From: Bacillota bacterium
GTDB lineage: Bacteria; Bacillota; Bacilli; Bacillales_B; DSM-18226
Assembly: GCA_030705665.1 (NCBI GenBank)
Contig: JAUZQA010000340.1
Span: 1-5,002 of the forward strand
Direction of reading: 5' to 3'
DNA length: 5,002 bases
The position numbers and the translations under genes are program-made. Shown piece by piece: positions 269 to 4,580 of the stretch (positions are counted from its first letter, which is position 1; every line of letters begins with the position of its first letter). Below the pieces are notes generated by a model that made no database searches, was not told the DNA's origin, and worked only from the letters and a program-made list of their open reading frames with translations.

Positions 269-1462
269 CTATTGAACTGTAAATGCCAAAATCTCATCAA
301 CAGCTTGGCGAGACCCGCCAGACTTTTGAAAGACTTCCCTATTTGCGGCAACAGCTTGATGGAAAGAGGGCTCGTTTAACACGCGCTCTGCGGCTTCACG
401 CAGTTGGTCTGCCGTCAAGCTTTGCATTTGCAAGGTAATACCAGCTCCAATTTTGGCAACCTGTCCAGCAATGATCGGCTGGTCCGCGCTTTGTGGGATG
501 ACAATGAGCGGAACCCCGTAATAGAGAGCTTCATTGGTACTGTTCATTCCTCCATGAGTGATAAATAGTTTACAGTGTTTCAGCACTTCCGTTTGCGGGA
601 CATAATTTTTGACAATGAAGTTTTGTGGAATCTCCCCCAAATCAGCGAGCTGCACTTTTCCCCCAATCGACATAATCACGGTATGGCCCGTATTCTCAAA
701 TGCTTGAAAACAAAGTTTATAGAAATCAATCGCTTGGTTAAAGACGGTACCAAGTGAAATGTAAATCGGACTTTTCCCCTTGATCGCAGACAGGTCAAAG
801 TTTTCTTTCATTACTGGGGAAGAGATGGACGGGCCAACAAACTTGTATTTTGGGTTGAATTCTTCACCCGATGGCTGGAACATTCTTGTTGTATATACAA
901 TCGTAAGTGGTGCAGGATTGCAAAAAACTTCGTAAGGCGAGTGAATGTTCACGCCGTATTGTTCCTTCACCCTTCCTGTCAGGGTTTGGAATTCATCGTT
1001 TATGGTCGCAGCTGCTTCGGCAGGAATTTTTTTCGAAAGATGTTCTAACATTTGCTCGAAGTTTTCTTTTGTTTGCGCAAAAGAAGTACAAGAACTAATG
1101 GCGGGCAGTTTAAGGATTTGAGCCAGTAAATAGCCGCAGCCGAACATGGAATCGTGGATGATATAATCAAAATGTTCTCCTTCAATTTGCTCAAGAACAC
1201 TTGGGATGACGATATCAGCCGTATGTAAAAGACCGTTGATTCTTTCGGTTAAATAGTTTCTGCCGCCTGAGATAAAGGCTTGAATAAATTTTTGACCGTC
1301 GAATGTTCGTACAGTCGCTCCTGTTTTCTCAATCCGTTCCCGAAAATCTTCAACTGCAAAGTACACTACCTCTTCGCCACGCGCAATAAGCTCTTGGACA
1401 ACCCCGATCGTTGGATTGATATGTCCTTCAGATCCTCCGTTAATAAATAAAACACGTGCCAT
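269..1462 (-). CDS. Macrolide-family (GT1, YojK/YjiC-like) UDP-glycosyltransferase
   Basis: This 397-residue protein has the full GT-B layout and normal length of the bacterial MGT family, which transfers a sugar from a UDP-sugar to small lipophilic acceptors such as macrolides or flavonoids. The N-terminal acceptor domain opens with VLFINGGSEGHINPT; His14 sits where the family's catalytic base lies, and Asp104 (in DYIIHDSMF) fits its partner. The C-terminal donor domain shows SLGT (236-239), NYVPQTEVL (286-294), HGGMNSTNEAL (303-313) and Asp327-Gln328, the sugar-contacting pair of the nucleotide-sugar signature. There is no signal peptide, so it should be cytosolic. The ATG at 1462 is supported by AAAGGGG at 1470-1476, seven bases upstream. 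It is transcribed alone from the gap that holds the repeat array. The natural acceptor cannot be read from sequence; detoxification of antibiotics or plant compounds is an inference. Confidence 0.92.
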   Translation of the reverse strand: MARVLFINGGSEGHINPTIGVVQELIARGEEVVYFAVEDFRERIEKTGATVRTFDGQKFIQAFISGGRNYLTERINGLLHTADIVIPSVLEQIEGEHFDYIIHDSMFGCGYLLAQILKLPAISSCTSFAQTKENFEQMLEHLSKKIPAEAAATINDEFQTLTGRVKEQYGVNIHSPYEVFCNPAPLTIVYTTRMFQPSGEEFNPKYKFVGPSISSPVMKENFDLSAIKGKSPIYISLGTVFNQAIDFYKLCFQAFENTGHTVIMSIGGKVQLADLGEIPQNFIVKNYVPQTEVLKHCKLFITHGGMNSTNEALYYGVPLIVIPQSADQPIIAGQVAKIGAGITLQMQSLTADQLREAAERVLNEPSFHQAVAANREVFQKSGGSRQAVDEILAFTVQ

Positions 1463-1526: not shown

Positions 1527-1800
1527 GAGATGTCTCGGCACTGTCTGCTAATCGTTCCTCTGTTTAAGGAAAACAGGTGAGCAAGGGAACGAAAAGGAGT
1601 TAATCGTGCCGATGCTCAAGGGAAATTGACGAGCAAGGGAATGAAAAGGAGTTAATCGTGCCCGTGCTCAAGGAAAATGGGTGAGCAAGGGAACGAAAAG
1701 GAATTAATCGTACCGATGCTCAAGGAAATTGGGGGAGTAGGGGAACAAAAAGGGGTTAATTGTGCCTGTACTCAGGGAAAAGGAGAGAGCACGGGCACAA
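1527..1800. repeat. 52-bp tandem array of hairpin-forming units (4 full copies plus degenerate and partial ends)
   Basis: Units begin at 1579, 1631, 1683 and 1735, each marked by GAGCA or GAGTA, and a partial unit begins at 1787; every step is exactly 52 bases. A degenerate copy at 1527-1578 is in the same phase and shares 16 of 21 bases with unit 1 over 1549-1569. Each unit is a 39-base imperfect inverted repeat plus a 13-base purine-rich linker. Arm GAGCA (unit positions 1-5) pairs with TGCTC (35-39), GG (8-9) with CC (31-32), and ACGA (11-14) with TCGT (26-29), around an 11-base loop like AAAGGAGTTAA. Unit 4 has GAGTA with TACTC and ACAA with TTGT, so both changes keep the pairing. The period is not a multiple of three and no long frame runs through the array, so it is not a protein repeat. 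The function is unknown; it fills almost the whole gap between the two flanking genes. Confidence 0.9.
1747..1800 (-). terminator. Possible terminator of the YdcF-family gene, built from repeat arms
   Basis: The left arm of the partial fifth unit (1787-1800) pairs with the right arm of unit 4 (1760-1773). The stem is 14 positions long with 12 Watson-Crick pairs, one wobble and one mismatch, and the loop is the 13-base linker. Read on the minus strand it begins 12 bases after the stop codon at 1813. The T-run (TTTTT, 1747-1751) is eight bases beyond the stem, farther than usual, so termination would be weak or atypical. Confidence 0.4.
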
Positions 1801-1812
1801 ATAAAACTTCAT

Positions 1813-2400
1813 TTATATTTTAAGCAAATAATATTTTGTAATCGCCAGGTATTCTCGAATATAGGATCTCGGAATAGCGAGAAGCGGGGTGCTCGCAGGT
1901 AGTCCGTGTAAGTTCAAATTTTGATCTCTAGCAATCATTAAGGCACGGTACAGGTGAAAGCGATTTGTGACAACTACCCCAGTCTTTGCATTCTTGGGAA
2001 GCAATTTTTTTGAAAACTTGATATTCTCATAGGTATTCGTAGACTGACTCTCCAAAAGAATCCGTGACCCGCTGATTCCTTTCTTGAGCAGTTCCTTTTT
2101 AATCGCTTCCGCTTCTGAAATTTCCTCACCGGGACCTTTTCCTCCCGAAGCAATGGCAATTGTTTTTGGATTATTGTTTAAATAAATTGCAGCTGTATCG
2201 ATGCGGCTTTGCAGCACGGACGAAGGAACGGTTCCTTTGACATTGGCTCCAAGAATAATTAAGTAATCCGCATGATTCGGAGCTTTCATTTGACTGTATT
2301 GGGCAATTTTCCATTGTAACAGCCCAAAGTAGATAAGGATGGTTCCAGTCAAAATACCAAAAATCAATAACAGCTTTTTATGGTAAAAAAACCTGCGCAT
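1813..2400 (-). CDS. YdcF/DUF218 (SanA/ElyC-like) membrane-anchored protein
   Basis: This 195-residue protein starts with a basic tip (MRRFFYHKKL) and one hydrophobic segment at about 9-29, likely an uncleaved anchor with the domain outside the cell. The rest is a DUF218/YdcF fold, showing its conserved blocks in order: DYLIILGA (45-52), SRID (65-68), SGGKGPGEEISEAEA (85-99), ES-STNTYEN (117-126) and TNRFHLYRA (145-153). These polar blocks form the family's putative active site. The biochemical activity is unsettled; relatives SanA and ElyC of enteric bacteria are linked to envelope integrity and peptidoglycan or lipid-carrier metabolism. The ATG at 2400 is backed by GGAAG at 2408-2412 with seven bases of spacing. 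The gene stands between the repeat array and the mutarotase gene, both on the same strand, with 156 bases upstream and its own TATAAT. A link to envelope stress is inference only. Confidence 0.88.
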   Translation of the reverse strand: MRRFFYHKKLLLIFGILTGTILIYFGLLQWKIAQYSQMKAPNHADYLIILGANVKGTVPSSVLQSRIDTAAIYLNNNPKTIAIASGGKGPGEEISEAEAIKKELLKKGISGSRILLESQSTNTYENIKFSKKLLPKNAKTGVVVTNRFHLYRALMIARDQNLNLHGLPASTPLLAIPRSYIREYLAITKYYLLKI

Positions 2401-3650: not shown

Positions 3651-4580
3651 TTGATTACTTTCCTAAAGAAAATAATAATAATTGGAATACTTTGTATCGT
3701 CGCAGATTTCGTTTTGGTCTACACCCATTCCCCTATAGCCATTAAACCCTCATTTGTTAAAAAGTTGGAAACTGTGTCTGCAGACAAACTTGAAGTAAAA
3801 GTAGCGGGAGTGAAAGAAGAAGCGACAACTGAGCAGACTGCAAAAGAACAAGCTGCAAAGGCGCAAGCGGCAAAAGAAGCAGCAGCGAAGGAACAAGCCG
3901 CAAATGAACAGGCGGCGAAAGAACAAGCAGCTAAAGCAGAGGCCGCAAAAGAAGCAGCAACGAAAGCACAGGCTGCTAAAGAGGCGGCGGCACAACAAGC
4001 CGGCAGAATACTAGATGTACCTCTTATTACGCAGATGAGTGATCCCAATCTCTACAATGGCTGTGAGGTAACAAGTCTGGCCATGATTCTAAATTACAGC
4101 GGATATCATGTCACGAAAACTGATTTAGCCAATAATATTGCAAGGGTCCCATTGACCTACCAAAACGGACTTAAAGGAAATCCCAATGTAGGGTTTGTAG
4201 GAAATATGGAAGTCGGACCAGGATATGCGGTATACAATGGACCAATCTACAATTTGGCCCAAAAGTATGCTGGTGATGATGTGGTTAATCTTACAAACCA
4301 TCCATTTACTGATATTCTGGCGAGAGTGTACCAAGGAGAGCCGGTTTGGGTAATCACGACCTGTTCATTTGCACCTGTATCTGATTTTATAACGTGGAAT
4401 ACGCCTCAAGGAACCATCAGCATTACCTATAGTGAACATAGCGTGGTTATTACCGGCTATGATGCCAACTACATCTATATCAATAATCCTTATGGTCAAA
4501 AAAGTCAGATGGTGGACCGAAGCAGCTTTGAAAAAGCTTGGGTGCAAATGGGGAGCCAGGCAATTGTTATTGGAAAATAA
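3651..4580 (+). CDS. Membrane-anchored C39-like (YvpB-like) cysteine peptidase with EAAAK helical stalk
   Basis: The 309-residue product has three parts. Residues 1-7 (MITFLKK) and a hydrophobic segment at about 8-25 form a signal anchor or signal peptide. Residues 61-115 are eleven pentapeptides of the (E/A)(Q/A/E)AAK type, predicting one long charged helix. Residues 118-309 are a Peptidase_C39_2-type, papain-like domain resembling B. subtilis YvpB: Cys138 (LYNGCEVTSLAMIL), His263 (SEHSVVITGYD) and Asn279 in INNPYG fit the catalytic set, the third residue being Asn rather than the more common Asp. It probably cleaves peptides outside the cell; the target is unknown and pseudo-enzyme status cannot be excluded. 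The only usual start in frame after the stop codon at 3630 is TTG 3651, with no good ribosome site (GGA at 3639-3641 only); an ATG at 3641 is out of frame by one base. It is monocistronic and ends in a strong hairpin before the rRNA operon. Confidence 0.85.
   Translation: MITFLKKIIIIGILCIVADFVLVYTHSPIAIKPSFVKKLETVSADKLEVKVAGVKEEATTEQTAKEQAAKAQAAKEAAAKEQAANEQAAKEQAAKAEAAKEAATKAQAAKEAAAQQAGRILDVPLITQMSDPNLYNGCEVTSLAMILNYSGYHVTKTDLANNIARVPLTYQNGLKGNPNVGFVGNMEVGPGYAVYNGPIYNLAQKYAGDDVVNLTNHPFTDILARVYQGEPVWVITTCSFAPVSDFITWNTPQGTISITYSEHSVVITGYDANYIYINNPYGQKSQMVDRSSFEKAWVQMGSQAIVIGK
3831..3995 (+). repeat. Eleven 15-bp coding repeats (EAAAK-type pentapeptides)
   Basis: Eleven consecutive 15-base units encode EQTAK, EQAAK, AQAAK, EAAAK, EQAAN, EQAAK, EQAAK, AEAAK, EAATK, AQAAK and EAAAQ. 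Codons vary between units (GCA, GCG, GCT, GCC for Ala), so the protein pattern is better kept than the DNA, which suggests selection on the helix rather than recent duplication. Confidence 0.9.

Follow-up and report, generated by a model that had tools for sequence, protein, structure and literature searches.

A 52-bp hairpin repeat array in a Bacillota genome, from the class of 52-nt tandem repeats of Bacillus: a common dyad skeleton and a possible fork polarity

In the contig JAUZQA010000340.1, of which the whole stretch of 5,002 nt analysed here is called the window, a 52-bp unit is repeated in tandem between two genes, and each copy can fold into a hairpin. The locus raises the question of what keeps both the fold and the unit length. 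An earlier note on this DNA had held that pairing itself is being maintained, either as RNA structure or as a DNA inverted repeat read by a protein. The array is confirmed: it contains four 52-bp units with decayed ends, each with the hairpin described, and none of it is protein-coding, since 1463-1812 contains no ORF of at least 60 aa. A UDP-glycosyltransferase-like gene (269..1462) and a DUF218 (YdcF-like) gene (1813..2400), both on the - strand, flank the array and serve here as context only. The right edge of the array and the end of the DUF218 gene are some 12 bp apart, and a search of 1380-1900 for terminator-like and promoter-like sites found none; read-through from the DUF218 gene into the array is therefore likely. 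An apparent 16S gene seems to begin on the + strand near the right end of the window, which suggests that + may be the leading strand. Elsewhere in the window, 15-bp coding repeats encode an Ala/Lys/Glu/Gln-rich stretch of a C39-like peptidase gene (3840-3982).

TRF gave a period of 52 with 4.2 copies at 1579-1795. The four units, whose purine-rich strand is the + strand, start at 1579, 1631, 1683, and 1735 and occupy 1579..1630 (hairpin 1579-1617, linker 1618-1630), 1631..1682 (hairpin 1631-1669), 1683..1734 (hairpin 1683-1721), and 1735..1786 (hairpin 1735-1773). The extent first proposed was 1579..1773; according to the edge scan and the sequence the true span is longer, approximately 1546..1801 on the + strand, or about 4.9 modules counted from apex to apex. 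On the left, a decayed unit consisting of the 3' half of a hairpin and a linker precedes unit 1 (1546..1578), and on the right a half unit comprises the 5' arm alone (1787..1801). When folded singly as ssDNA on the + strand, all four units form the hairpin that had been described, with GAGCA/TGCTC, GG/CC, and ACGA/TCGT helices, in the first 39 bases and with an 11-nt loop. On the - strand, the lowest-energy ssDNA fold of unit 2 lacks the ACGA/TCGT inner helix, and the ssDNA hairpin is more stable on the + strand in all four units. As RNA, the array (1579-1795) has a better fold than every one of 200 dinucleotide shuffles, on + (z of -5.43) as well as on - (z of -7.48). On either strand the whole-array fold retains the local hairpin in three of the four units and has the right-hand half unit paired to an arm of unit 2. 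Unit positions 6/34 and 10/30 are unpaired in all four units, and positions 7/33 are paired in unit 2 only and form G.T in unit 4.

The paired changes that had drawn attention to unit 4 are present as described: C4->T is accompanied by G36->A, and G13->A by C27->T, and both double changes keep the pairing. Likewise, C12->T in unit 2 yields a T.G wobble pair. The four substitutions in unit 4 are its sole changes among the 22 consensus-paired positions and form exactly two complete pairs, an outcome that random placement of four changes reached in 0.76% of 200,000 trials. Covariation inside the window is real but small. Gene conversion from an inverted copy, which had been named in advance as an explanation that would undo the argument, is unlikely to have produced unit 4 as one tract, because the unpaired 10/30 position lies between the two changed pairs and was left unrepaired.

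The nearest relative found for the DUF218 protein, with 87% identity, is that of Neobacillus sp. PS3-12, where the glycosyltransferase is 88% identical. Among 50 neighbour loci, that of PS3-12 (L001) is the one in which the glycosyltransferase lies within the fetched flank. At the same site PS3-12 has two full units against four in the window, with half units at both ends, and the best aligned stretch between the two arrays shows 91% identity over 231 bp. The decayed left unit of the window (1546..1578) has an intact counterpart there. By the edge measure the arrays contain 2.94 modules in PS3-12 and 4.92 in the window, indicating that whole units have been lost or gained between the sister species.

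The earlier note recognised no named element here. That point has to be given up, since a class of this kind is already in print, though without a structural family or an Rfam entry: the array belongs to the "52-nt tandem repeats of Bacillus" described by Subirana and Messeguer in 2021 (PMC8161180). These repeats have a constant length and a variable sequence; among the Bacillus species covered by that paper (176 genomes) about 30% carry them, with 38-103 tandem repeats per species (PMC8161180, Table 1), and their authors, who used their own program SATFIND, propose protein lattices or small RNAs. The class is delimited by a length of 52 +/-1 nt, at least four repeats, a non-coding location, and a Bacillus-type (Firmicutes) host, and all of these apply to the window array. 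Class and array thus share a period of 52, non-coding sequence, at least four copies, and a host in the Bacillaceae, and N. mesonae, also sampled here (L005 record), is among the species of PMC8161180. For the class, RNA-seq matches in B. coagulans are reported in PMC8625621. In Rfam, three sub-threshold matches fell in the window, none of them at the array, and no match reached the gathering score. A distant blastn search of plasmid and phage records with the array region gave no match, and neither did a search of viral contigs with one exact core pattern.

The class is further marked by sequences specific to a species and by several families of equal length in one genome. Array matches at E<=0.001 were obtained in 22 of 193 family genomes, with PS3-12 by far the best (four candidates were scored per genome), and the unit spacing in the matching arrays is 52, with a few doubles of 104-105. 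Several 52-nt families of differing sequence are present in PS3-12. We sampled on a grid 80 stretches of 20 kb from PS3-12 and 40 from N. mesonae. Among the non-coding TRF rows with a period of at least 30, coding status being judged by ORFs and not by annotation, the period is 52 in 14 of 23 in PS3-12 (1.6 Mb) and in 14 of 23 in N. mesonae (0.8 Mb). The other periods were 31, 39, 42, 51, 82, 102, 104, and 156, of which the 104 and 156 rows may describe the same arrays. Neighbouring units are exactly 52 apart in 190 of 206 cases despite 12.9% base differences, as counted by a unit finder that drops units below 55% match, allows two-base shifts, and so favours regular spacing. In some relatives of Bacillus such arrays number in the dozens, and their fixed 52-nt length calls for an explanation. 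Meanwhile, three non-coding period-42 arrays of PS3-12 (L140:17169-17262, L142:3907-3985, and L152:470-584) apparently consist of two 21-nt halves and perhaps represent the 20-21-nt class of PMC8161180. In L071:1342-1650, two different hairpin repeat families, of the GTGGAATGA type and the GAGCACGGGCAC type, adjoin each other.

The analyses that follow draw on 66 arrays, namely 27 from loci fetched by similarity to the window array (L069-L106), the window array itself, and 38 others, including the PS3-12 copy of the window array. When aligned on the axis of the inverted repeat, families as different as GGGAACGA/TCGTGCCC, TGTCCGAAG/CTTCGGACA, and TGGTCTTCAT/ATGAAGACCA share one frame. This skeleton has K-G-K at -13 to -11 and M-C-M at +11 to +13, a variable complementary stem, and an 11-bp core; its hairpin spans 27 bp, and an A-run lies about 26 bp, half a period, from the axis. 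Fifty arrays have an inverted repeat at p<=0.05 (mononucleotide shuffle), and 48 of them were aligned, L004 and L037 being dropped with an axis between bases. In the 29 of these that are neither the window array nor similarity-fetched, the information of the skeleton amounts to 21.4 bits when the true axes are used and to 8.16 +/- 0.45 with random axes, and 27 of 29 have both G at -12 and C at +12. In 20 of 28 arrays the longest A/T run is no more than 4 bp away from one of the two axes. Out of sample, among the 18 published 52-length consensus repeats (PMC8161180, Table 1), 10 fit the skeleton at p<=0.05 and 8 do not; an inverted repeat at p<=0.05 is present in 14 of the 18, and its axis coincides with the skeleton axis in 13. 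PMC8161180 states no sequence conservation and tests no covariation, and the dyad skeleton, the apex-phased ends, and the fork polarity are added here. Among the papers listed by the literature search we found no other on covariation, fork polarity, or a shared skeleton of these repeats, and these points may be new.

The earlier interpretation, that pairing is maintained, is supported in part, with different answers between and within arrays. Between arrays it holds, in that inverted repeats recur with varied Watson-Crick pairs. Of the 38 arrays from loci outside the similarity fetch, 28 pass p<=0.05 for an inverted repeat against dinucleotide shuffles (24 pass p<=0.01), and the remaining 10 lack a significant one. 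At positions 6-9 from the axis the two bases are Watson-Crick partners in 42-47 of 48 arrays, with three or four kinds of pair; these 48 had been chosen for possessing an inverted repeat. In the same 48, the commonest states at distance 10 are C-G (19) and A.G (18), and at distance 11 they are G-C (18), T-A (18), and T.C (12), so that an asymmetry in the middle of the stem is retained as well. Inside arrays, covariation is thin: double changes within the 50 arrays number six, of which four are paired (two of them the window's own), compared with 9 paired of 38 when the frame was slid by 1-3. Single stem changes inside the 50 arrays comprise 27 G.T, 19 A.C, and 44 other mismatches, and as a test of RNA wobble (27 G.T against 19 A.C) they show no clear preference.

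The ends of the arrays are also related to the fold. Array edges lie within 6 bp of a hairpin apex in 40 of 60 cases, against 25% expected (22 of 30 on the left and 18 of 30 on the right, with the window among the 30 arrays). In PS3-12, the distance between successive, alternating GTCCGAA half-sites switches between about 34 and about 18, and seven of nine GTCCGAA clusters, of two or three modules each, start with a left-pointing and end with a right-pointing half-site; no lone exact GTCCGAA pair was seen in 1.6 Mb of this genome. An array therefore tends to be a set of complete modules cut at the apex, a pattern that simple slippage does not predict. In addition, five GTCCGAA arrays (L122, L134, L140, L154, and L171) have a common TGTCGAGAAAC-like stretch about 30 bp outside their left edge, which in several GTCCGAA loci directly follows an apparent terminator hairpin.

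To relate the arrays to replication, we located the origin from gene strand and GC skew, at about 2.63 Mb in PS3-12 and about 2.65 Mb in N. mesonae. Of 27 arrays, 23 have their purine-rich strand as the leading strand, compared with 495 of 745 control intergenic regions, which is borderline when counted by sign (Fisher p 0.058); the mean purine fraction is 0.607 in arrays and 0.521 in the control regions. Six arrays lie between co-directional genes that run against the fork, and five of them follow the fork, one weakly (0.52), while one does not (0.46). Judged by eye, with the query's own place included and the best match deciding where both strands match, one N. mesonae family is fork-oriented in 14 of 14 places, another in 8 of 11, and the PS3-12 GTCCGAA family in 12 of 18. 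These observations suggest that the purine-rich strand of the arrays tends to lie on the leading strand, which has the sequence of the lagging-strand template. With respect to genes, arrays are commoner at convergent pairs (13/40 vs 197/1338) and rarer at divergent pairs (5/40 vs 362/1338), in a tally that counts two arrays twice (L001/L137 overlap). Where the neighbouring genes are in tandem, the purine strand was sense 15 times, antisense six times, and neutral once.

Starting from the observed period, skeleton, apex-bounded edges, and whole-unit difference between sister species, we propose that the array is a replication-polarised DNA hairpin satellite, whose modules are gained and lost at replication forks through a hairpin-processing activity; we put the chances of this proposal at about even. 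In this reading each 52-bp unit is a dyad, with a hairpin of 27-bp span around an 11-bp core and, half a period off, an A-rich linker; the arrays are built of whole modules, apex to apex, and their purine-rich strand tends to the leading strand. The hairpins would act as DNA while single-stranded at the fork, where a putative processing or recombining activity may add or remove whole modules; base pairing would be kept because this activity needs the fold. Parallels exist in hairpin-tip nucleases such as SbcCD and in strand-biased single-strand transposition. On the choice between RNA structure and a protein-read DNA inverted repeat, the evidence leans to DNA, not decisively, since the linker and the core keep their lengths as strictly as the stem does, the fork is followed in most of the discordant cases, and no clear wobble preference is seen. 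Several results weigh against the proposal: the strand bias is borderline by sign and weaker in two of the families counted by eye, no processing enzyme emerged in PS3-12 beyond two partial Y1 matches, 10 of 38 arrays show no significant inverted repeat, 8 of 18 published repeats do not fit the skeleton, covariation inside arrays is thin, and the array is likely to be transcribed by read-through. A bolder extension, which we hold to be rather unlikely, would make the 52-nt satellites of Bacillaceae, described as unrelated in sequence, one modular class with a shared dyad skeleton, produced at forks by a putative single-strand-hairpin enzyme that cuts or joins at the apex, measures 52 bp, and leaves its copies oriented with the fork. 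A benefit of the array to the host is possible. Worth following are the skeleton common to the arrays, their apex-bounded modules, and a fork polarity that is possible. These features supply testable predictions about the builder of 52-nt arrays and argue for replication and hairpin processing as targets of study besides small RNAs.

The main rival to this proposal follows PMC8161180 in placing the function in duplex DNA, where a putative dimeric protein would occupy dyad half-sites, one unit per five turns, and form a lattice that organises the nucleoid or chromosome. That 52 equals 5 x 10.4 bp speaks for it, as do the strict spacing while the sequence varies, the near-invariant G/C at -12/+12 with an A-run phased to the dyad, and the mid-stem mismatch states kept at positions 10 and 11 from the axis. 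The lattice leaves unexplained, however, why the variable inner stem positions are complementary and why the edges fall at the hairpin apex, and no binding protein is known; we regard it as unlikely. Next in rank, and less probable, is an RNA element, a transcribed array whose hairpins would work as part of a small RNA or of an untranslated region. The good RNA folds on both strands would suit it, together with the finding of no terminator-like site that would separate the array from the DUF218 gene, the excess of sense orientation (15 to 6, one neutral) in tandem gene pairs, and the RNA-seq matches for the class in B. coagulans reported in PMC8625621. Against it, the linker and the core are held to their lengths as strictly as the stem, five of the six arrays among against-fork genes follow the fork, and the 27 G.T and 19 A.C single stem changes show no clear wobble preference.

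In last place, and in our judgement very improbable, stands a passive satellite without function or dedicated enzyme, in which hairpin-assisted slippage would multiply the units and arm-to-arm templating would keep the palindrome. Such a process would account for the copy number that differs between sister species, for the likeness of units within an array, and for the excess of arrays at convergent gene ends and their scarcity at divergent ones. It is at odds with a length fixed at 52 bp across differing sequences and with edges locked to the apex; moreover, arm-to-arm templating would remove the 10/30 mismatch, which is kept in all four units of the window.

Comparison with known repeat systems bears on the proposed DNA hairpin satellite. 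CRISPR arrays are likewise regular repeats with dyad symmetry. They have unique spacers, whereas in the window array the whole 52-bp unit repeats, linkers included, and no unique spacers occur. BOX, STAR, and MIRU are modular intergenic repeats of variable copy number, as the 52-nt arrays are; unlike these arrays, to our knowledge, they do not keep a constant unit length across differing sequences. The idea of a CsrA sponge, suggested by GGA loops, was dropped, as many of the fetched arrays have no GGA in the loop. REP/BIME elements, which are associated with RAYT (Y1) transposases, are clustered imperfect intergenic palindromes. They resemble the 52-nt arrays in their clustered palindromes and in being commoner at convergent gene ends; the arrays differ in their fixed 52-bp register. 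Some Y1 match occurs in 22 of 26 genomes. No full Y1 transposase was detected in PS3-12, where two partial matches, one with a stop, were found, and the flanks of 20 Y1 genes of relatives, inspected by eye, contain other palindromes or none, not those of the array type. A Y1/RAYT origin of the arrays is therefore not supported. Near the Y1 genes of relatives, five 52-nt arrays were counted in 0.38 Mb, one of them about 0.5 kb from a Y1 gene; the samples of PS3-12 (1.6 Mb) and N. mesonae (0.8 Mb) contain 14 each. Meanwhile, the RAYT-like Y1 genes of Neobacillus relatives at L188, L190, L191, and L202 are flanked by palindromes of the GGGACGGTTCT..AGAACCGTCCC or GGGACAGG..CCTGTCCC type, which apparently form a separate REP-type family.
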